Source: Gammaproteobacteria bacterium | GTDB taxonomy: Bacteria; Pseudomonadota; Gammaproteobacteria; Steroidobacterales; Steroidobacteraceae | Length of the DNA: 12,455 nt | Direction: 5' to 3' | NCBI GenBank assembly: GCA_030043215.1 | Contig: JASHYG010000337.1 | Coordinates: 1 to 12,455 of the forward strand | Part shown: positions 2,242-11,926 of the stretch, one piece after another | How positions within the stretch are numbered: the stretch's first letter is position 1 | How the letters are laid out: each line of letters opens with the position of its first letter | Notes under the pieces: generated by a model | Databases searched by the model: none | The model's input: only the letters and a program-made list of their open reading frames with translations | What the model was told of the DNA's origin: nothing | Made by a program: the position numbers and the translations under genes

Positions 2242-3120
2242 TCAAGATAAGGCCCGGCTCAGCGCCCAGGCGCATACCAGGATGCAGGCGAAGCCGAACG
2301 AGAGATAGCCCCACGCGCGAAACTTCTCGCGCCGCTCGAGCCGCTCGGGAGTCATGGGCGCGATCATGAACGGCCTGCCGTCGGTAGGCTGGGAGATGAC
2401 GCTGACGCGCGCGATGTGGGAGCTCAAGTTCTGCGCCTCGCATTCCTTGGCTGCAGCGGCGCGCGCCCTGTCCCATTCCGCTGCGCTGAGCACGCCATCG
2501 TGGTCGGCATCGAAGCGCGCGAGCAGCGTCTTCTGGTCCTGCTTCCACTCATGGAGCTTGGCGGCGATCGCAGCGCTCACATCGCCGGTCTCCGACTGCG
2601 AGCGGAACTCACCGACGACGCACAGATGGGCGTCCACTGCAAGCAGCTGCTCGAGGTAGCGGAAACGGCCGCGGCCCACGCTGACGACGGGTGGAGCTCC
2701 CGAGGGCCGGGGCGAGTCCCCATACCAGGAATTGGAGATAGTCGGCGTGACTTCGGCTTGCACGGGACCCACGAGGCACTGTGCATCGTCGTCCACGAGC
2801 GCGAAGGGCTCGACGCTGGTCGCGCGCTCCACATTGACCCAATTTGATCGGCCCCTCTGGTCCCTGCCCTGTTCCTCGTCAACCCGGAAGTTCCACCATA
2901 CGCACGGCCGCCCGCTGAGCGGTGCGGCGGCCGGCGTGCCCGAGGCCGGCTGTGCGTGCCCCACGACCTTGACGTAACCCTGCGCGGCGGAGCGCACGCG
3001 CACGAGCGGCGTATCGGCAACCGCGCGGTCGCGGCGCATGCGCGAGAAGAATCCATACAGGCCGACGGCCGAGAATATCGCCGCTACGCCGGCGAGGACC
3101 TGGGCGCCCTGGGGGGTCAT
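2242..3120 (-). CDS. GIDE-like two-TM membrane protein with an EF-hand loop
   Basis: The product is 292 aa; the start is ATG 3120-3118 and the stop TGA 2244-2242. A TM helix at about 7-25 and a second at about 270-288 bracket a large soluble region. The region around 36-175 ('VRSAAQGYVKVVGHAQ', 'LSGRPCVWWNFRVDEE', 'FALVDDDAQCLV', 'GEFRS') has the layout of the GIDE domain, first named in the mitochondrial ubiquitin ligase MUL1 and common in bacteria beside lemA; no RING domain is present, so a ligase function should not be assumed. Residues 203-216, FDADHDGVLSAAEW, are a canonical EF-hand loop (D204, D206, D208, G209, S212, E215), suggesting calcium binding. The gene lies 68 bp downstream of lemA on the same strand, so the two are probably one operon. 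The biological role is unknown. The family call rests on motif and neighbour; the EF-hand is directly visible. Confidence 0.75.
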   Translation of the reverse strand: MTPQGAQVLAGVAAIFSAVGLYGFFSRMRRDRAVADTPLVRVRSAAQGYVKVVGHAQPASGTPAAAPLSGRPCVWWNFRVDEEQGRDQRGRSNWVNVERATSVEPFALVDDDAQCLVGPVQAEVTPTISNSWYGDSPRPSGAPPVVSVGRGRFRYLEQLLAVDAHLCVVGEFRSQSETGDVSAAIAAKLHEWKQDQKTLLARFDADHDGVLSAAEWDRARAAAAKECEAQNLSSHIARVSVISQPTDGRPFMIAPMTPERLERREKFRAWGYLSFGFACILVCAWALSRALS

Positions 3121-3188: not shown

Positions 3189-3761
3189 TCAGCGCGAGAA
3201 CGCCGCCTGCAGGTCCACGTCCGCCTTCTCCTCGGGCTGGAAATGCAGCAGCTGCGCCTCCGGAAAATTGCCCATGCCGGCAACCAGCACGCCCGGGAAG
3301 CTCGCGATACGCACGTTGTTGGTATTGACGGCGTCGTTATATGCCTCGCGGCGGTCGGCGATCGCCGTCTCGAGGCCGCTGATGCGCTCCTGCAGATGAC
3401 GGAACGGCTCGCTCGCCTTGAGCTGCGGGTAGTTCTCGGCGACGGCATAGAGGCCCGTGAGGCCTGCGCGCAATTCGCGCTCGGCGGCGCCAAGCGAAGC
3501 GACGTTGCCGGACGTGCGTGCGGCGTCCACGCCTGCGCGGGCGCGCATGACGCGCTCGAGCGTCCCCGCCTCGTATTGCATGTACTGTTTGCAGACCTCG
3601 ACCAGCTTCGGCAGCTCGTCGTGACGCTGCACGAGCAAGACGTCGATGTTGGACCAGGCGAGCTTGACCGCCGCACGCACCTGTACGAGCCCATTGTAGG
3701 TCCCGATGAGGTAGCCAACGACGGCCAGGAAGAGAAACAGCACAGCGAGCAAGCCAATCAT
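3189..3761 (-). CDS. lemA: LemA family protein
   Basis: The product is 190 aa, typical of LemA. The start is ATG 3761-3759, chosen because it begins directly at the N-terminal TM helix (residues 2-20) and has GAGG 9 nt upstream. The frame stays open back to 3866, but those 35 residues (rich in R, G and P) are unlike the family. After the helix comes the hallmark 'YNGLVQVRAAVKLAWSNIDVLL' region (about 22-43), then 'QRHDELPKLVEVCKQY', 'AVAENYPQLKASEPFRHLQ' and 'RREAYNDAVNTNNVRIASFPG', all diagnostic LemA blocks. The fold is a long helical bundle anchored in the inner membrane with the N-terminus outside. Its molecular function is unknown; LemA was first described through an antigenic epitope in Listeria. 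It is the first gene of a probable operon with the GIDE-like gene, a pairing known in many proteobacteria. Confidence 0.93.
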   Translation of the reverse strand: MIGLLAVLFLFLAVVGYLIGTYNGLVQVRAAVKLAWSNIDVLLVQRHDELPKLVEVCKQYMQYEAGTLERVMRARAGVDAARTSGNVASLGAAERELRAGLTGLYAVAENYPQLKASEPFRHLQERISGLETAIADRREAYNDAVNTNNVRIASFPGVLVAGMGNFPEAQLLHFQPEEKADVDLQAAFSR

Positions 3762-4241
3762 GAGATGAATCCTCGCGCGAGGCGGCAAGCGCCCCGCGGA
3801 GCATACCCGCCGTCCCAGAGCAACAGTGTGAATGGCTTGGCACCCTAGACCCGACTGTTTTCCCAATCTCGGGTCCCGGGCGGCGTATCAACAGTGCGCA
3901 GATTGGATTTGTGACGCCGGTCGCGATAGCAGCCGTCGGATCGTCCGGCGCCGGCGGCGACCGCAGCATCTACCGCGACCGAGGCTCGCAGATCCGCGTG
4001 GAAGTGCGGCGGTATATCCGATCGAGGCGGTCGACCTGTTGACAACTGTCAACCCGAACTCCTGACAGAAGCGACTGTCGCGGCATTGCGCGGCGGCCTA
4101 GCCTCTGGCCCTCGTCAGCGGACATTCGGGAGCTCTCATGACCCCAACGAATTCACAGTGCCTCTCGACGGCGCTTCCTCGCGTGCGGATGCGCACGAGC
4201 GCCCCATCCTCGAGATGCCATCGTTCTCTGAGGATCGCACC
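3762..4241. other. Divergent intergenic region between lemA and the esterase gene
   Basis: These 480 bp separate two divergent genes and must hold both promoters. I see no convincing coding sequence: open frames here have no recognisable motifs and read as GC-rich noise. A frame continuous with the esterase reaches back to a TTG at 4086, but its 52 extra residues precede the signal peptide and look non-coding. Notable structures are the palindrome 4038-4053 and the dyad 4064-4079 (listed separately), a GACCCGA/TCGGGTC inverted repeat (3848-3875, 14-nt loop) and the small palindrome CCGGCGCCGG (3945-3954). On the minus strand TATGCT (3805-3800) is a possible lemA -10 box, without a good -35 box. 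Confidence 0.6.
4038..4053 (+). promoter_or_regulatory. 16-bp palindrome, candidate operator upstream of the esterase gene
   Basis: GTTGACAACTGTCAAC has perfect 7-bp arms around a 2-bp centre. Eleven bases further on, a second dyad with a related core follows (GACAG 4064-4068, CTGTC 4075-4079). The left arm contains TTGACA, a perfect -35 box, but no good -10 box lies 16-18 bp downstream. The pair sits about 160-200 bp before the esterase ATG and resembles operators of small dimeric repressors such as TetR or MarR types. No such regulator is encoded in the window, so the owner is unknown. Confidence 0.4.
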
Positions 4242-5807
4242 ATGAGCCTCTTCCCGCCGCTCTGCACACTCGTGATGCTGGCGTGCCTTGGTGTTGCGGG
4301 CGCGGGCGAGCCCTCCGGTCCACCGGTGGTGCGCATCGCGACCGGTCTCCTGCGCGGCCAGCACGACGGCTCGATCGATGTCTTCCGAGGCGTTCCCTAT
4401 GCGATGCCGCCGGTCGGGGCCCTGCGCTTCAGACCCCCGAGGCCGGCCGCGAGATGGAGCGGAGTGAGGACCGCCGAGCAATTTGGCCCCGCCTGCCCGC
4501 AGCCGACCAACGCCAGCTCCGTCGGGAATCTCGGCGGCGACTTCGGTCCCATGAGCGAAGACTGCTTGACGTTGAACATCTGGGCTCCGCACCACGCGCG
4601 CCGGGCCCCCGTCATGGTCTGGATTCACGGGGGTGCGAACCGATTGGCGTCCGGAGCATTCTCCATGTGGGATGGCACCGCCTTCGCGCGCGACGGCGTG
4701 GTCATCGTCAGCTTCAACTATCGCCTCGGCGGTCTCGGTTTCTTCGCCCATCCGGCCCTGACCGCGGAGGCGGCACCCCACGAGCCGCTGGGCAATTACG
4801 CACTGATGGATCAGATCGCGGTGCTGCAATGGGTCCGGCGCAACATCGCGGCCTTCGGCGGCGATCCGAGCAACGTCACGCTCTTTGGCGAGTCCTCCGG
4901 GGCCAATGAGACGCTTTGGCTCATGGCGGCTCAGTCTGCGAGAGATCTGTTCCAGAGGGCGATCGTGGAGTCGGCCGGCGGATGGATCGCGCCGACCACA
5001 CTGGCCGAGCGGGAGCAGGACGGCGTCAAACTGGCTCATCTTGCCGGACTGAACGGCTCCGCAGTGACGGCGGCCGCGCTGCGCGCGCTTCCGGTGAGCG
5101 CATTCCTGGACCCCGCGTTCAATTTCGACTTCGAGCCCTTCATCGACGGACGCTTGGTGACCGAGACGCCCACGCAAGCCTTCGCACGATCCCGATTCGT
5201 GGGACGGCCGCTGATCATCGGCTTCAACAGCTTCGAGGGATCCGTCTGGCGTCCGGACTTCATTTCGCAGCTCGACATTCCGGTCCGCGAGCTCGCCGGT
5301 CTGTATCCGGACAATCTATCCAGTGAGTCGTCGAAACGCCTGCTCTGGGCCGATCAGTACGATGGCGCGCCGTCGCGCTGGATAGCGGCCCGCATGGCGA
5401 GCAAAGCTCCGAGTTATCTCTATCGCTTCGCTTACGTGCCCGAGAGGCAACGGGCGCTCCTGCCTGGGGCACCGCACGGTGGAGAGCTGCCGTTCGTCTT
5501 TGACAGCTGGGATCGATTCAGCGGCGCGGTCGCGAGTGTCTACCGCTTGATGAGCGGAGGGGTCTTTCAGGTGACGGCCCAGGATCGCGCCGTGACCGCG
5601 TTCGTTCACGGCTGCTGGGTCGCCTTTGCGAAGACCGGACGTCCGGATTGTCCAGGGGGACCCGCATGGCCGGAGTACTCGGTCGGTGCCGATCAACTCA
5701 TGGACTTCGACGAGCGCCCCACGGTCGAGCGCGGTGTGCGAAAGGCTCAATTCGATGCGCTCGAGCGCGTGCTGCTGCCACGTGTTCTCGACTCCTCGAA
5801 TCGGTAG
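4242..5807 (+). CDS. Exported type-B carboxylesterase (alpha/beta-hydrolase)
   Basis: The product is 521 aa, normal for the type-B carboxylesterase/cholinesterase family. The start ATG 4242 has GAGG 8 nt upstream and begins a Sec signal peptide (M1 to about A21, cleavage probably near GAG-EP), so the enzyme should be periplasmic or secreted. Family landmarks in order: 'FRGVPYAMPPVGALRFRPP' (48-66), 'SEDCLTLNIW' (105-114), the oxyanion-hole WIHGGAN (127-133), the nucleophile elbow FGESSGA with S218, the acid E332 in GFNSFEGS, and H412 in PHGGELPFVF. The triad is complete, so activity on carboxylic esters is expected. The substrate cannot be read from sequence; lipids, plant esters and xenobiotic esters are all possible. 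It is probably transcribed alone from the 3762-4241 region, though only 44 bp separate it from the sensor kinase gene. The stop is TAG. Confidence 0.93.
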   Translation: MSLFPPLCTLVMLACLGVAGAGEPSGPPVVRIATGLLRGQHDGSIDVFRGVPYAMPPVGALRFRPPRPAARWSGVRTAEQFGPACPQPTNASSVGNLGGDFGPMSEDCLTLNIWAPHHARRAPVMVWIHGGANRLASGAFSMWDGTAFARDGVVIVSFNYRLGGLGFFAHPALTAEAAPHEPLGNYALMDQIAVLQWVRRNIAAFGGDPSNVTLFGESSGANETLWLMAAQSARDLFQRAIVESAGGWIAPTTLAEREQDGVKLAHLAGLNGSAVTAAALRALPVSAFLDPAFNFDFEPFIDGRLVTETPTQAFARSRFVGRPLIIGFNSFEGSVWRPDFISQLDIPVRELAGLYPDNLSSESSKRLLWADQYDGAPSRWIAARMASKAPSYLYRFAYVPERQRALLPGAPHGGELPFVFDSWDRFSGAVASVYRLMSGGVFQVTAQDRAVTAFVHGCWVAFAKTGRPDCPGGPAWPEYSVGADQLMDFDERPTVERGVRKAQFDALERVLLPRVLDSSNR

Positions 5808-5851: not shown

Positions 5852-7033
5852 GTGAGCCGGCTTGATCTCGCCGATCGCGCCAGGAGCGGCCCGGCACCGG
5901 TAGACGGGCGGGTCAACTGGGAGCCGTTCCTGTGGCTGGCCTACCTCCTCTTGCTGTTCGCGCCTCTGACGTGGAAGCAGACTCCCGAGGAGTTTCGGAC
6001 CTGGCTCTTCCCAACGCTGATCAGCCTGCCGCTGTTCTTGGCGCTGTATCGGCGGCTTTATCGCAGGCGCTGGCAGCTCACTCTCGTCGATCTGCTTCCG
6101 ATGGCCTTGCTGGGCTACCTGCTCACCCCCTTCAACCCGCTCGGCTTCACTTACCTGACGTACGCCGCGATATTTGCGCCCTATGCGCTCCCGGGTCTAT
6201 TCCGGCCGTTCCTGCTCTCGCTTGCGCTGGTCGCTCTTCACGCCGCCGAGATTGTCGTCATCCATCAGCCTTCGATATTACTCACCGTCGTCTGTGCGAC
6301 TGTGTTCATCGTCCTATCCTGCGTCAACGGCTACTTCAAGGTGGAAGACAACCGCAAGAGCGCTGCATTGAGGTTGTCGCACGAGGAGATCCGGCGCCTT
6401 GCAGCGGTCGCCGAGCGAGCGCGCATTGGCCGGGACTTGCACGATCTGCTCGGTCACACGCTCTCTCTCATCGCCGTCAAGGGCTCGCTGGCCCAGAAGC
6501 TCGCCGCGCGCGACCTCAGCGCCGCGATCCGCGAGATGGAGGACGTCACGCGCACGGCGCGTGATTCCCTCAAGCAAGTCCGCGCCGCCGTCGCAGGAAT
6601 GCACTCGGCATCGCTCGAGGAGGAGTTGACCTCGGCGCGTGAGCTACTCGAGTTGAGCGGTGTGGCCGTGAGCTGCCATCGGGCCCCGGAGGTGCTGCCG
6701 CCCGAGACCGAGACAGTGCTGGCGATGGTCATTCGAGAGGCGACGACCAACATCCATCGACACGCCATGGCAAGCCGAGCCTGGATCGAGATCCAGCACG
6801 AGCTCGGAAGCGTATTGCTGCTCGTCCGCGATGACGGACGCGGTGGTGCGACGGCTCGCGGAAGTGGGCTCGCGGGAATCCAGGCGCGAGTGGGCTCCCT
6901 GGGAGGCGTCCTGGAGATCGACTCGGCGGTCGGTCACGGCACCGTACTTCATGTAGAGCTGCCGCTCGATCATCGCGCCGGTGACTCGCCACCCTCATTG
7001 ACGAACCCCGTATCGTCGGAGGCGGGCGCGTGA
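5852..7033 (+). CDS. Sensor histidine kinase, HisKA_3 (NarL/DesK) type
   Basis: The product is 393 aa. The start is GTG 5852 with GGGAGG (5835-5840) 11 nt upstream; the nearer ATG 5842 is out of frame and closes after seven codons. Residues about 25-160 hold roughly five or six TM helices (25-40, 52-67, 78-95, 101-114, 119-137, 142-160) with almost no loop, so signals are probably sensed in or at the membrane, as in DesK-like kinases. A short coiled linker leads to the HisKA_3 dimerisation domain with phospho-accepting H197 in 'ERARIGRDLHDLLGHTLSLI'. The HATPase_c domain has the N-box 'REATTNIHRHA' (N300), the G1 box DDGRGG (327-332) and the G2-like GSGLAGIQARV. It should autophosphorylate and pass phosphate to the regulator encoded immediately downstream, whose start overlaps its stop by 4 bp. 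The signal is unknown. Confidence 0.93.
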   Translation: MSRLDLADRARSGPAPVDGRVNWEPFLWLAYLLLLFAPLTWKQTPEEFRTWLFPTLISLPLFLALYRRLYRRRWQLTLVDLLPMALLGYLLTPFNPLGFTYLTYAAIFAPYALPGLFRPFLLSLALVALHAAEIVVIHQPSILLTVVCATVFIVLSCVNGYFKVEDNRKSAALRLSHEEIRRLAAVAERARIGRDLHDLLGHTLSLIAVKGSLAQKLAARDLSAAIREMEDVTRTARDSLKQVRAAVAGMHSASLEEELTSARELLELSGVAVSCHRAPEVLPPETETVLAMVIREATTNIHRHAMASRAWIEIQHELGSVLLLVRDDGRGGATARGSGLAGIQARVGSLGGVLEIDSAVGHGTVLHVELPLDHRAGDSPPSLTNPVSSEAGA

Positions 7034-7632
7034 TTCGGGTTCTCCTCGCGGAAGATCAGGCGATGCTGCGCGGCGCGCTGTCTGCGCTGCTGAGCCTGGA
7101 AGGCGACATCAGCGTAGTCGGCAGCGTTCCGGACGGGTCGGCCGCCTGGACGCAGGCCCAGAAGCTGCGCCCGGACGTCATCATCGCGGACATCGAGATG
7201 CCGGGCCTCAGCGGGATCGAGCTGGCCGCGCGCGTGCAGGAATCCGGTCTGCCGAGCAAGGTGGTGATCGTCACGACGTTTGCTCGCGGTGGCTATTTGC
7301 GCCGGGCTCTCGATGCCGGTGTCGCGGGCTACCTGCTGAAAGACGCGCTGCCGGAACAGCTCGCCAACGCGGTGCGCGTCGTGCATGCCGGCGGGCGTGC
7401 GATCGATCCCGAATTGGCGATCGGCGCATGGTCCGAAGCCGATCCGCTCACCGACCGGGAGCGCCAGCTATTGCGACTCGCCGGAGAAGGTCTCTCGGCA
7501 TCGGAGATCGCCGCCCGGCTCAACCTGACCCACGGGACGGTACGCACCTACCTCTCCGGGGCGACCGGAAAGCTGCACGCGCGCAATCGCATCGAGGCCT
7601 ATCGCCTGGCGCGAGAGAAGGGCTGGCTCTAG
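7030..7632 (+). CDS. NarL/FixJ-family response regulator
   Basis: The product is 200 aa; GTG 7030 overlaps the kinase stop (GTGA), indicating translational coupling. The receiver domain spans about residues 1-120, with acidic pair E8/D9, phospho-acceptor D54 in VIIADIEMPG, T82/T83 in IVTTFA and K104 in YLLKDA. The LuxR-type helix-turn-helix (about 139-200) reads 'PLTDRERQLLRLAGEGLSAS', 'EIAARLNLTHGTVRTYLS', 'HARNRIEAYRLA'. It should dimerise and bind DNA once phosphorylated by the HisKA_3 kinase encoded upstream. Organisation and kinase type resemble DesK/DesR and other small NarL-type systems. The target is unproven; the nearest downstream promoter is the one at 7964-7992 before the DUF1592 gene. 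The stop is TAG, followed by a GC hairpin at 7654-7673. Confidence 0.93.
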   Translation: MIRVLLAEDQAMLRGALSALLSLEGDISVVGSVPDGSAAWTQAQKLRPDVIIADIEMPGLSGIELAARVQESGLPSKVVIVTTFARGGYLRRALDAGVAGYLLKDALPEQLANAVRVVHAGGRAIDPELAIGAWSEADPLTDRERQLLRLAGEGLSASEIAARLNLTHGTVRTYLSGATGKLHARNRIEAYRLAREKGWL

Positions 7633-7653
7633 CCTGACAGCGTTGTCCGACCT

Positions 7654-7673
7654 CGCCTGGGCCGCGCCAGGCG
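7654..7673 (+). terminator. GC hairpin after the response regulator gene
   Basis: CGCCTGG (7654-7660) and CCAGGCG (7667-7673) form a perfect 7-bp stem with a 6-nt loop, 21 nt after the regulator stop. No T-run follows (the next bases are GCGACCC), so intrinsic termination is uncertain. Its location at the end of the two-component operon supports a 3'-end role. Confidence 0.4.
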
Positions 7674-7963
7674 GCGACCCAGTCCCACCCGCCGTTAGCC
7701 GGCCTCGCGTGCTCCGGGTCATGCGATATCGAGGAGACCGGGCTTTCCATGCGCATCCAACTCCATGATTTATTAGACTATGTTATCTCGCCGGTCCAGC
7801 CCATCAGTGGCGGGCCAGGACGGGCGCGGTCCCTCGAGGGGTAAGGATCGCGGAAAGCCGCTCTCCGGTCAGGAATGCTCCTCGTACTGCCAGCCTGGGG
7901 AGCCCGCGTCCGCGCGCTTCCGACAGCGCTCACAACCGGAATAAATGCTTATCTTCCAGTGCG

Positions 7964-7992
7964 TTGATTTAGTCGCATCGGGGGGCTATACA
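7964..7992 (+). promoter_or_regulatory. Sigma-70-type promoter of the DUF1592 gene cluster
   Basis: TTGATT (7964-7969) and TATACA (7987-7992) are separated by exactly 17 bp; each matches the consensus at 4 of 6 positions. The overlapping TACAAT (7989-7994, 5 of 6) with a 19-bp spacer is an alternative -10 box. Transcription would start near 8000, giving a leader of about 20 nt that contains the ribosome-binding site GGGAGG (8011-8016), 4 nt before ATG 8021. Assignment is by pattern only. Confidence 0.5.
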
Positions 7993-8020
7993 ATGAGATC
8001 GCAACAACCCGGGAGGCGGA

Positions 8021-8278
8021 ATGCGCAAGAGCGGAGCATTGTTCAATGATGCGCTGAGGCTGGCCGGCACGTGCGTGCCGGTGGTTTGGCTTGCCCTCTC
8101 GGCTGGGGTCGCGCAGGGCCAGGAGGCGGCGAGCCCGCAGGCCCAGGGGGCGGTGAACCCCAGTGTCACCAAGCCCTTCCAGGCCATGATCAATACCATT
8201 TGCTCGAAGTGCCACAACACCACGGACTGGGCCGGTGGCTTCGCCTTCGACTCCTTGGATGTGAATCATCCCGGCTAG
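8021..8278 (+). CDS. N-terminal piece of the DUF1592-family protein: signal peptide plus CxxCH haem motif, ended by in-frame TAG
   Basis: ATG 8021 with GGGAGG 4 nt upstream opens an 85-codon frame that stops at TAG 8276-8278. Residues 1 to about 33 form a Sec signal peptide (hydrophobic core 'TCVPVVWLALSAGVA', cleavage probably after AQG). C61-S-K-C64-H65 is a cytochrome-c haem-attachment motif, followed by 'NTTDWAGGFAFDSLD', the usual N-terminal cytochrome-like segment of exported DUF1592 proteins. The same frame resumes directly after the stop (DPKIWEQAITKLTGRLMPP), and the expected distal Met ligand of the haem (M103 in LMPP, counting the TAG as residue 86) lies beyond it. The fragment alone is therefore not a complete cytochrome domain. 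Good ribosome-binding site, promoter, signal peptide and codon use show that this was, or still is, the true 5' end of the large gene downstream. Confidence 0.75.
   Translation: MRKSGALFNDALRLAGTCVPVVWLALSAGVAQGQEAASPQAQGAVNPSVTKPFQAMINTICSKCHNTTDWAGGFAFDSLDVNHPG
8276..8278 (+). other. In-frame amber codon splitting the DUF1592-family gene
   Basis: TAG lies between codons GGC and GAT in a frame that is open from 8021 to 10555 apart from this one triplet. It is a single base change from CAG, AAG, GAG, TCG, TGG, TTG, TAC or TAT. TAG also terminates the esterase and response regulator genes, so it acts as a normal stop in this genome. Nonsense mutation, base-calling error and readthrough are all compatible with the sequence. 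Confidence 0.9.
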
Positions 8279-8326
8279 GATCCCAAGATCTGGGAACAGG
8301 CCATCACCAAGCTCACTGGGCGGCTC

Positions 8327-10558
8327 ATGCCTCCCGCCGGACAGCAACAGCCGGCCCAGGCCACCATCGATGCCTTCATCGGCTACCTCTCGACCCGCCT
8401 TGACGATTCCGCGAAGGACCGCGGTGTCGGCCATGTGCCGCTCGAGCGACTCACCCGCACCGAATTCGCGGCCTCGGTGAAGGACATTCTCGGAGTGGAC
8501 GTCGATCCCAAGCAGATCCTGCCCACCGAGATCGAGGTCGATGGTTTCAGCAATATCGCCGGCGCCCTGACCGTCTCCCCGACGTTCATGGAGCAGTACC
8601 TCTCCGCGGCGCGCCACGTTGCCGAGACGGCCGTCGGCGAGCCCCTTCCGAAAATGGCCACCGTCTTCTTCGGGGGCGGCGGCGGCGGTGGCGGGCAAGC
8701 CGGACTCGGTTCCGCGGCTCAGTACACCCATCGGGACGGGTTCCCCTTGGGCACGCGGGGAGGCGTGAGCTTTACCTACGTCTTCCCTGCCGATGGACAG
8801 TATCGCTTCAACTTCATGGACGGCGACAGTCTCGACGCCGGCCTGTATCCGCGCGGCATGGAAACACGGGCGACGCTCGTCATCCTCGTGGACGGCACGG
8901 AAGTCGCTCGCCGGCAGATCGGCGGACCGGAGGACCTGGCCCTTGCCGACCGCGACGGCCCCACGGGACGCTCGGCCATCGTCGCCCAGGTGTCGCAGAT
9001 ACCGGTGGAGGTCAAGGCCGGCGAGCACCGGGTGACGGTCACCTTCATCGAGCGCGCCTGGTCCGAGAGCAACGACCCGACCGGCGCCGGCCGGACCTTC
9101 GGCATCGGCATGCCGATCATCCGGGACGGCGTCCAGGTCGTGGGACCGTTCTCACCCCAGGGGCTGTCCCTGAGCGCGAGTCGCGCCAAGATCTTCGTCT
9201 GCGAGCCCCAGCAGCCGGCCGAGGAGCGGCCTTGTGCCGAGCGCATCGCGCGGCATCTGGCGACCGAGGCGTTCCGCCGTCCCGTGACGGACGACGACGT
9301 GAAATCGCTGATGGCATTCTATGATGTCGGCCGGACGGAGCCGGGCGGCTTCGATTCCGGGGTGACCGAGCTCATCACCGCGATCCTCTCGAGCCCGGAT
9401 TTCCTCTATCGCGCGATCTCGAGCCCCACGACTCCGGGGCAGTCACGTCCGCTGACCGATCTGGAGCTGGCCTCGCGCCTGTCCTTCTTCCTCTGGAACG
9501 AGGGCCCCGACCCGCAGCTGCTCCAGCTTGCCGAGAATGACCAGCTCTCGGACCCCAAGGTCCTGGATGCCCAGGTCGCGCGCATGCTGAAAGATCCGCG
9601 TGCCGAGTCGCTGGTCACCGACTTCGCGTTCTCGTGGCTGAACTTCGGCACCCTGAATCAGATCGAGCCGCTCGACCGCGAATTCACGGCCGACATGAGG
9701 ACGAACTTCGAGACCGAGGCGCGCCTGTTCCTCGACAGCGTGCTGCTCGAGAACCGCAACGTGACCGACCTGCTCACGGCGGACTGGACGTTCGTCAACG
9801 ATACGCTCGCCCGGCAGTACGGCATCCCGGACGTTCTCGGGCCGCAGTTCCGGAGAGTGACGCTGAAGGATGAGAATCGCTGGGGCCTGCTGGGCAAGGG
9901 GGCATTCGAGCTCAGGACCTCATATGCCGACCGGACGTCGCCCGTGCTGCGTGGCGAATACATCCTCGACCGGCTCATTGGCACCCCGCCCCACCCGCCA
10001 CCGCCCGGCGTCTTCATGGATCTGTCCTTCCACGAGGGCCAGCCGCCCACCAACGTGCGCCAGCGCCTCGAGGCCCACCGCCGCAATCCGACGTGCGGCG
10101 CCTGCCATGGCCTGATCGATCCCTTGGGTCTCGCACTCGAGAATTTCGACGTGACCGGACGCTGGCGTACGATCGATCCCGCCACGAAGGTGCCCATCGA
10201 TCCGACGGCGGAGCTCGATAGCGGAATCGTGCTGCGCAATCCTTCGGATCTGCGGCGCTATCTCACGCGCAAGCCCGACCAGTTCCCAACGGCCGTGACC
10301 AAGCGCTTGATGATGTATGCGCTCAACCGCGAGCTCGAGTACTACGACATGCCCCAGGTCCGCAAGATCGTGCGGGACGCTGCAGCCAGCAACTATACGT
10401 TCGCCTCGCTCATCACCGGTGTCGTCAACAGCGATGACTTCCGACGCCAGGGAGCGGCCGACGCGAAACCGAAGCAGGCGCCGGATGCCGCCCATCCGCT
10501 GAAGGTGGCCGCCACCGGCAGCGGCGGCAAAAACGCGACGCAGCGGCAACAGGAGTAA
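8327..10558 (+). CDS. DUF1587/DUF1595/DUF1592/DUF1588/DUF1585 multidomain cytochrome-like protein (downstream part of the split gene)
   Basis: From ATG 8327 this frame encodes 743 aa; the coding sense actually resumes at 8279, right after the TAG. ATG 8327 has no convincing ribosome-binding site and lies in the family's conserved MPP motif, so it is unlikely to be the natural start. In the 743-aa numbering: DUF1587 about 39-103 ('RLTRTEFAASVKDILGVDVD'), a glycine run 116-123, a beta-rich carbohydrate-binding-like insert about 132-275, DUF1595 about 300-363, DUF1592 about 375-505 ('LTDLELASRLSFFLWNEGPD'), DUF1588 about 516-614 with 'GTPPHPPPPGV' and a second haem motif C590-G-A-C593-H594, and DUF1585 about 625-706. 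Such proteins are exported and usually carry an N-terminal cytochrome c domain; their reaction is unknown, an extracytoplasmic redox role being inferred. The downstream DUF1552 gene starts 6 bp after the stop, the typical pairing. Whether a functional full-length product is made depends on the TAG at 8276. Confidence 0.85.
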   Translation: MPPAGQQQPAQATIDAFIGYLSTRLDDSAKDRGVGHVPLERLTRTEFAASVKDILGVDVDPKQILPTEIEVDGFSNIAGALTVSPTFMEQYLSAARHVAETAVGEPLPKMATVFFGGGGGGGGQAGLGSAAQYTHRDGFPLGTRGGVSFTYVFPADGQYRFNFMDGDSLDAGLYPRGMETRATLVILVDGTEVARRQIGGPEDLALADRDGPTGRSAIVAQVSQIPVEVKAGEHRVTVTFIERAWSESNDPTGAGRTFGIGMPIIRDGVQVVGPFSPQGLSLSASRAKIFVCEPQQPAEERPCAERIARHLATEAFRRPVTDDDVKSLMAFYDVGRTEPGGFDSGVTELITAILSSPDFLYRAISSPTTPGQSRPLTDLELASRLSFFLWNEGPDPQLLQLAENDQLSDPKVLDAQVARMLKDPRAESLVTDFAFSWLNFGTLNQIEPLDREFTADMRTNFETEARLFLDSVLLENRNVTDLLTADWTFVNDTLARQYGIPDVLGPQFRRVTLKDENRWGLLGKGAFELRTSYADRTSPVLRGEYILDRLIGTPPHPPPPGVFMDLSFHEGQPPTNVRQRLEAHRRNPTCGACHGLIDPLGLALENFDVTGRWRTIDPATKVPIDPTAELDSGIVLRNPSDLRRYLTRKPDQFPTAVTKRLMMYALNRELEYYDMPQVRKIVRDAAASNYTFASLITGVVNSDDFRRQGAADAKPKQAPDAAHPLKVAATGSGGKNATQRQQE

Positions 10559-10564
10559 TCTGCC

Positions 10565-11926
10565 ATGGCGACGTTCCTGACCAAGAAGCATTTGTCCCGG
10601 CGCACGTTCCTGCGCGGCAGCGGCGTAGCCCTGGGGCTGCCGTTTCTGGACGCCATGGTGCCGGCCGCCACGGCGCTCGCGAGCACCGACGCTGCACCGA
10701 AGACCCGTGCGGGATTCTTCTACATCCCGCACGGGGCGATCATGAACAACACGGTCTACGGCAAGAAAGTCGACGCCTGGAGCTCCACCGGCAAGGGCGC
10801 GGACTTCACGCTCGGCAAGACCTTGGCGTCGCTGGAGCCGTACAAGAAATACGTCACGACCTTCGACAATCTCGAGAACCTCGCCGCGCTCGGTTCCGTG
10901 CACACGCTGAACCCTGCGACCTGGCTGTCCTGCGCGCGGCCAGACACGGAAGCCAAGGGCGCGAGCATGTCAGTCACTCTCGATCAGATCGTCGCTCAGC
11001 ACATCGGGCAGAAGACCGCGCTGCCTTCGCTCGAGGTGTGCTCGGAAACGACCATCCAGGTGGCCGCCTGCGGCGGCGCGGGTTGCTACTACGCCTCGAC
11101 CACATCCTATTCCGGGCCCAATACGCCGCTGCCGATGGAATACAACCCGCGCAAGGTGTTCATCGAGCTCATGGGCGAGGGCGATACGGCGGCCGAGCGC
11201 GCAGCGCTGCTGCGCGAGAACATGAGCATCCTCGACATGATCAGCGAGCGCGCGAAGGCGCTGAACAGCGAGCTCGGCCCGAACGACCAGGCGAGGCTCG
11301 CGGACTATCTCGATACCGTTCGCGAGCTCGAGCGGCGGGTGGCTCTCGCCGGCACGAGGAAGCTGACGGGCATCGATGTACCGGACGCGCCGCTCGGTGA
11401 GCTCGAGAATTTCGACAAGCAGGTCCGGCTCATGTTCGACCTGATTGCCCTCGCCTATCAGGCCGACCTCACGCGCGTCGTCTCGTACGTGATGGTCTCC
11501 GAAGGCACCAATCGCACCTATAACTTCGTCGGCGTGCCCGATGCCTTCCACCCGGTCAGCCACCACTCCAACGACCCCGAGCGCATTCGCCGCCTGCAGG
11601 TGATCGAGCGCTATCACATGGAGCGGTTCGCGGACTTCGTGAAGAAGCTGGCCGACACCAAGGAGGGCGACGGCAGCATCCTCGATCATTCGCTGTTCCT
11701 CTATGGCTCGAACATGAGCAACAGCAACCAGCACGACAACTATCCCTTGCCGGAGGTCCTGGTCGGCGGAGCGAACGGTGCGCACGTCGGCGGCAAGAAC
11801 GTGGTGCTGGCCCCGCACACGCCGCTCTCGAATCTGCACCTGACCATCCTCGACAAATTCGGGATCAAGCAGAAGAGCTTTGGCACCGGCTCCGCCATCA
11901 GCACCGGCGTCATCACCGAGGTCTGA
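10565..11926 (+). CDS. Tat-exported DUF1552 family protein
   Basis: The product is 453 aa. ATG 10565 has AGGAG 9 nt upstream, overlapping the end of the previous gene, which points to co-transcription and coupled translation. The N-terminus is a twin-arginine signal: S11-R12-R13-T-F-L-R followed by 'GSGVALGLPFLDAMVPAATA', so the protein is exported folded. The body has DUF1552 landmarks: 'AGFFYIPHGAIMNN' near residue 50, 'HTLNPATWLSCA', 'TPLPMEYNPRKVF', 'ERAKALNSELGPNDQARLAD', 'YLDTVRELERRV', 'FHPVSHHSNDPERI' and 'LFLYGSNMSNSNQHDNYPLP'. A small Cys/Gly patch (ACGGAGCYY) precedes the SYSGPNTPLP segment. The enzymatic function of DUF1552 is unknown. Its constant partnership with DUF1592 proteins suggests that the two act together outside the cytoplasm. 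The next gene starts 45 bp downstream. Confidence 0.93.
   Translation: MATFLTKKHLSRRTFLRGSGVALGLPFLDAMVPAATALASTDAAPKTRAGFFYIPHGAIMNNTVYGKKVDAWSSTGKGADFTLGKTLASLEPYKKYVTTFDNLENLAALGSVHTLNPATWLSCARPDTEAKGASMSVTLDQIVAQHIGQKTALPSLEVCSETTIQVAACGGAGCYYASTTSYSGPNTPLPMEYNPRKVFIELMGEGDTAAERAALLRENMSILDMISERAKALNSELGPNDQARLADYLDTVRELERRVALAGTRKLTGIDVPDAPLGELENFDKQVRLMFDLIALAYQADLTRVVSYVMVSEGTNRTYNFVGVPDAFHPVSHHSNDPERIRRLQVIERYHMERFADFVKKLADTKEGDGSILDHSLFLYGSNMSNSNQHDNYPLPEVLVGGANGAHVGGKNVVLAPHTPLSNLHLTILDKFGIKQKSFGTGSAISTGVITEV

Follow-up and report, generated by a model that had tools for sequence, protein, structure and literature searches.

In-frame stop codons in bacterial genes are described by Belinky et al. 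(2021; PMC7918605) as widespread and mostly short-lived, and the same paper also reports purifying selection on bacterial genes that carry them. The locus examined here is similar in that a stop lies within an otherwise conserved gene, and their example sets TAG versus CAG at a single position of an alignment; it differs in that their focus is on orthologous stops present in more than one species, whereas the stop studied here was seen in one contig only. The gene itself has its closest described counterpart in PMC5615132, where PSCyt and PSD domains likewise occur in one protein next to an adjoining gene of unknown function, and the functions of PSCyt-encoding genes are said to be unknown. 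However, those genes are from Verrucomicrobia, while ours is an interrupted copy from a Steroidobacteraceae-like proteobacterium. Such in-frame stops have already been described (PMC7918605), and in this respect the present case is an ordinary one. The window, by which we mean the whole 12,455-nucleotide stretch analysed, is the entire contig C70, one of 455 contigs in a 2.49-Mb draft genome that is 62.8% complete, and its best protein matches, where a family was named, came from Steroidobacteraceae.

The interrupted frame lies on the forward strand at 8021-10558 and consists of 845 codons and a terminal TAA (10556-10558), with TAG 8276-8278 at codon 86 as the sole internal stop; our reading of the frame thus agrees with the first-pass annotation, made from the DNA letters and a list of open reading frames, which had described it as broken by this TAG alone. 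Where that annotation had placed a ribosome-binding site in front of the gene, direct reading showed a ribosome-binding-site-like GGGAGG at 8011-8016 (+), upstream of the start codon. The promoter it had proposed was not recovered, as a sigma-70 consensus scan of 7600-8400 returned no sites, other promoter types being outside the scan. The N-terminal 85 codons (8021-8275, +) encode a putative signal peptide, recognised by eye, and a CxxCH motif at residues 61-65, seen in the translation and in homologues. The remainder of the gene (8279-10558, +) holds Met103 and then, in order, DUF1587, DUF1595, DUF1592, DUF1588 and DUF1585, each above its curated cut-off and all downstream of the TAG, with a second CxxCH (residues 692-696) within DUF1588. 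The arrangement claimed earlier, with the first CxxCH upstream of the TAG and the Met ligand and all DUF domains downstream, therefore holds, and the interrupted gene encodes a PSCyt/DUF1592-type multidomain protein. The list of open reading frames splits the gene into a first half of 85 aa (8021-8278) and a second of 743 aa (8327-10558, +), the latter opened mechanically at the next ATG, which is Met103, the Met of the RLMPP motif, and a possible restart. This ATG is in frame and 48 bases past the TAG, with no clear ribosome-binding site seen upstream of it by eye.

When the TAG was read as X, PSCyt1 matched residues 61-107 with 21.9 bits, just under its cut-off of 22, and Cytochrome_CBB3 matched residues 55-123 with 21.1 bits, under its cut-off of 27, while the two pieces searched separately matched neither profile. 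As these matches appear solely when the TAG is read as X, the TAG probably falls within a cytochrome domain at the N-terminus, although both profile scores are below their cut-offs. The predicted structure of the read-through protein had a mean pLDDT of 46.1 and the model was set aside. Codons 66-102, between CxxCH and Met103, make up 37 of the 845 codons and include codon 86, so that the cut does fall between haem attachment and axial ligand, as the first-pass annotation had stressed. The weight it gave to this placement is nevertheless unsupported, because codon 86 is a variable position and the interval was singled out after the fact. Nonsense changes are, furthermore, possible at many places in this frame, since 50 of its codons are one transition away from a stop.

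Protein homologues were examined as the best 120 of 4228 matches, one of which (P0005) is the window itself, leaving 119 with 70-88% identity. In all 119 the frame runs through codon 86, and all 119 keep both the CxxCH and the Met of RLMPP. Residue 86 in these same 119 is Q in 66, E in 20, D in 18, R in 4 and G in 4, with rarer states of A (2), H (2), K (1), S (1) and N (1), and on this alignment position 86 is variable and tolerates many amino acids. The four nearest relatives, which are 88.8-89.2% identical to the window and include two that are 99.9% alike, all have Q at this position. Comparison of codon 86 with orthologues, as had been proposed from the DNA alone, thus gave a sense codon in every case examined and glutamine in the four nearest. 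Among the relatives compared as DNA the codon varies. It is CGC (Arg) in the same-genus G003 and GCG (Ala) in the same-genus G002, both about 79% identical, and as neither is Gln the ancestral codon is uncertain.

A search of 59 genomes, including the window's own, gave 97 family matches in 14 of them; in three of these 14, scoring covered 16 candidates out of 18 to 22, and the matches include many paralogues, with some that fall short of position 86. A truly internal stop was present in one of the 97, namely the window's own match. Six further matches had been flagged with a stop, but these were terminal stops, beyond which the match continued for 0 to 5 codons. A stop at the same place was seen in none of the 119 homologues (best 120 of 4228) and none of the 96 other family matches, and no second sample with the same TAG was present among the matches listed. 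Searching with the 85-residue piece gave three matches from five candidates, these being the window, P0123 and P0122, and a truncation of the window's type was found in the window's own match only. P0123 was rejected as a truncated copy, as it extends beyond codon 86 and ends on a 929-base contig. P0122 (100 aa) is a more distant sequence from another metagenome, encoded on a contig of 1740 bases; it ends near the position of the window's stop in a divergent tail (VT), which may reflect a frameshift or the end of the contig. A relative of the family with 37% identity is also encoded on the L042 contig, which is titled as a Klebsiella pneumoniae MAG and is possibly mislabelled.

Constraint was assessed in an alignment of 34 rows, in which columns were called invariant when identical across all rows but the one tested. 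The window differs in one of 321 otherwise invariant columns, compared with 0 to 6 for the other 33 rows. Nei-Gojobori estimates against L010 and L011, from which branch values were derived by arithmetic on the pairwise figures, gave the window branch a dN of 0.053, a dS of 0.19 and a dN/dS of about 0.27, with dN/dS of about 0.41 and 0.22 for the L010 and L011 branches, respectively. Pairwise dN/dS was 0.59 and 0.64 before the stop versus 0.33 and 0.21 after it, and the weaker constraint on the N-terminal part may merely reflect the signal peptide and linker. Relative-rate counts were taken for four sisters against four outgroups, giving 16 comparisons that share rows and are not independent; the window's side was faster in 14 of these (extremes 42:26 and 39:22) and slower in the other two (32:35 and 37:38), a lean that is a possible hint of mild relaxation. 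Judged from these sequence comparisons, the interrupted gene is without clear decay and does not have the features of a decayed pseudogene. This is consistent with the earlier statement that no other lesion has accumulated, given the lack of any other stop, the single changed column and the dN/dS of about 0.27.

We also assessed whether TAG is read as sense in this genome. Release factor 1 (prfA) is present, above its curated cut-off and with no stop inside. Stop codon use was sampled from 21 contigs (130,077 bases, window included), with open reading frames filtered mechanically by length and GC3, and the 84 frames obtained ended in TGA (56), TAG (20) and TAA (8). Within the window itself TAG terminates two other genes, at 4086-5807 and 7030-7632, as had been pointed out in the first-pass annotation. 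Anticodons of 21 tRNA genes were assigned with ARAGORN and those of two at contig ends (CAT and CGT) by eye; the suppressor tRNA with a CUA anticodon that it had been suggested to look for was absent among these 23, in a genome that is 62.8% complete and whose missing part could hold one. A tRNA-Gln(CUG) gene is present. No stops were found inside eight other own-genome matches to the interrupted protein (some partial), 13 TonB-receptor matches or 41 ABC matches (38 above cut-off and three below), and with none in these 62 matches false stops are not a general feature of the assembly.

We favour the reading in which the TAG is a real and very recent point nonsense substitution, most likely a segregating polymorphism or a pseudogene too young for decay, and consider this probable. 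Under this account a formerly functional, normal PSCyt/DUF1592 gene would have been hit by one nonsense substitution, the base at 8276-8278 being real, the earlier codon 86 presumably glutamine and the change to TAG a single C-to-T transition. Translation from 8021 would then halt after 85 residues to give an exported fragment that lacks the axial Met, and the main product would be lost, or made as mere traces through basal misreading of UAG or a weak restart. The nonsense substitution is preferred to an assembly or sequencing error, which is the less likely of the two though still a serious candidate; the weights given to all of the readings are our judgement and were not computed. If a sequencing or consensus error, or mixing of strains in the assembly, had produced the TAG, then the organism's gene would be intact, and this would fit a draft as fragmented and incomplete as this one, a TAG present in one contig only among the matches listed, a gene without other lesion and no clear loss of constraint. 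Against this, the 62 other family matches of this genome, surveyed for stops and not for frameshifts, have none, and a C-to-T transition, if the earlier codon was glutamine, belongs to a common natural class of mutation. That related copies are whole points to a young mutation or an assembly error and not to new decoding, and when a draft assembly shows a lone stop in an otherwise clean gene, a young polymorphism or an error is in any case the expected source, which calls for caution. Of the three origins raised in the first-pass annotation, recent change and error therefore both fit the data, whereas readthrough gained no positive support.

Functional readthrough, in which UAG would be decoded at a useful rate, perhaps as Gln, to give a low and possibly regulated amount of full-length protein, is in our opinion improbable. 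Constraint persists over the gene as a whole, several different insertions might serve at so permissive a residue, the tRNA-Gln(CUG) gene is at hand and purifying selection on genes with in-frame stops offers a precedent (PMC7918605). The stop is, however, absent from every relative examined, where conserved readthrough would have it shared, no CUA tRNA is among the 23 and release factor 1 is present; the remaining constraint also gives readthrough no preference, because the same pattern is predicted by an error and by a change that arose very recently. The more specific proposal, that a UAG at a permissive site between haem-binding motif and ligand is read through to set a tunable low-expression state of the cytochrome, is marginally more doubtful again. 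Were readthrough true, an electron-transfer protein would be dosed by a stop codon. A claim of recoding needs evidence from relatives, tRNAs, release factor and reads. A split into two separate products, with the downstream one starting at ATG 8327 and taking a new role, has the in-frame 743-aa reading frame on its side, yet it is very unlikely, given that this ATG has no clear ribosome-binding site before it, its product would be without an N-terminal signal peptide, the haem motif would be parted from its ligand and the layout occurs in none of the 119 homologues (best 120 of 4228). Genome-wide reassignment of TAG has no finding in its favour and can be given next to no credence, as recoding is contradicted by the intact release factor 1 and by TAG serving as an ordinary terminator, both in the 20 of 84 sampled frames and in the two window genes, with CUA tRNAs again lacking among the 23; the earlier judgement that global recoding is unlikely agrees with this.

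Amber hotspots occur at Dcm-methylated CCAGG sites, and an earlier CAG codon would have made the window's site CCAGG. In contrast to such systems, however, the window's own incomplete genome has no detected C5 DNA methylase, and a Dcm-type hotspot was set aside as the cause of the TAG on the ground that none was found in this 62.8% complete assembly. Among five relatives, the enzyme was found in the same-genus G002 and in G006, a member of the same family, but not in G001, G003 or G009, which places it in one of three same-genus genomes. TAG 8276-8278 sits in CTAG, a disfavoured tetramer that is scarce in the 21 contigs of this genome, window included (34 observed, where a simple Markov estimate gives 104.5), and this decides nothing about its origin. 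GATC is abundant in the same 21 contigs, with 1050 copies versus 399 expected from base composition.

Downstream of the interrupted gene a profile match identified a DUF1552 gene (10565-11926, +), and the gap of six bases between the two makes it a probable operon partner. A DUF1552-like frame with a closely similar start also lies downstream in the same-genus relative L010. Upstream, at 5852-7632, a HisKA_3 histidine kinase gene overlaps that of a LuxR-type response regulator. Elsewhere in the window, a gene for a GIDE ('E3 Ubiquitin ligase') domain protein directly adjoins a LemA gene (2242-3120 and 3189-3866, both on the reverse strand), and at 501-2190 a penicillinase-repressor-type gene overlaps a BlaR1-type M56 peptidase gene, forming a familiar regulator pair.
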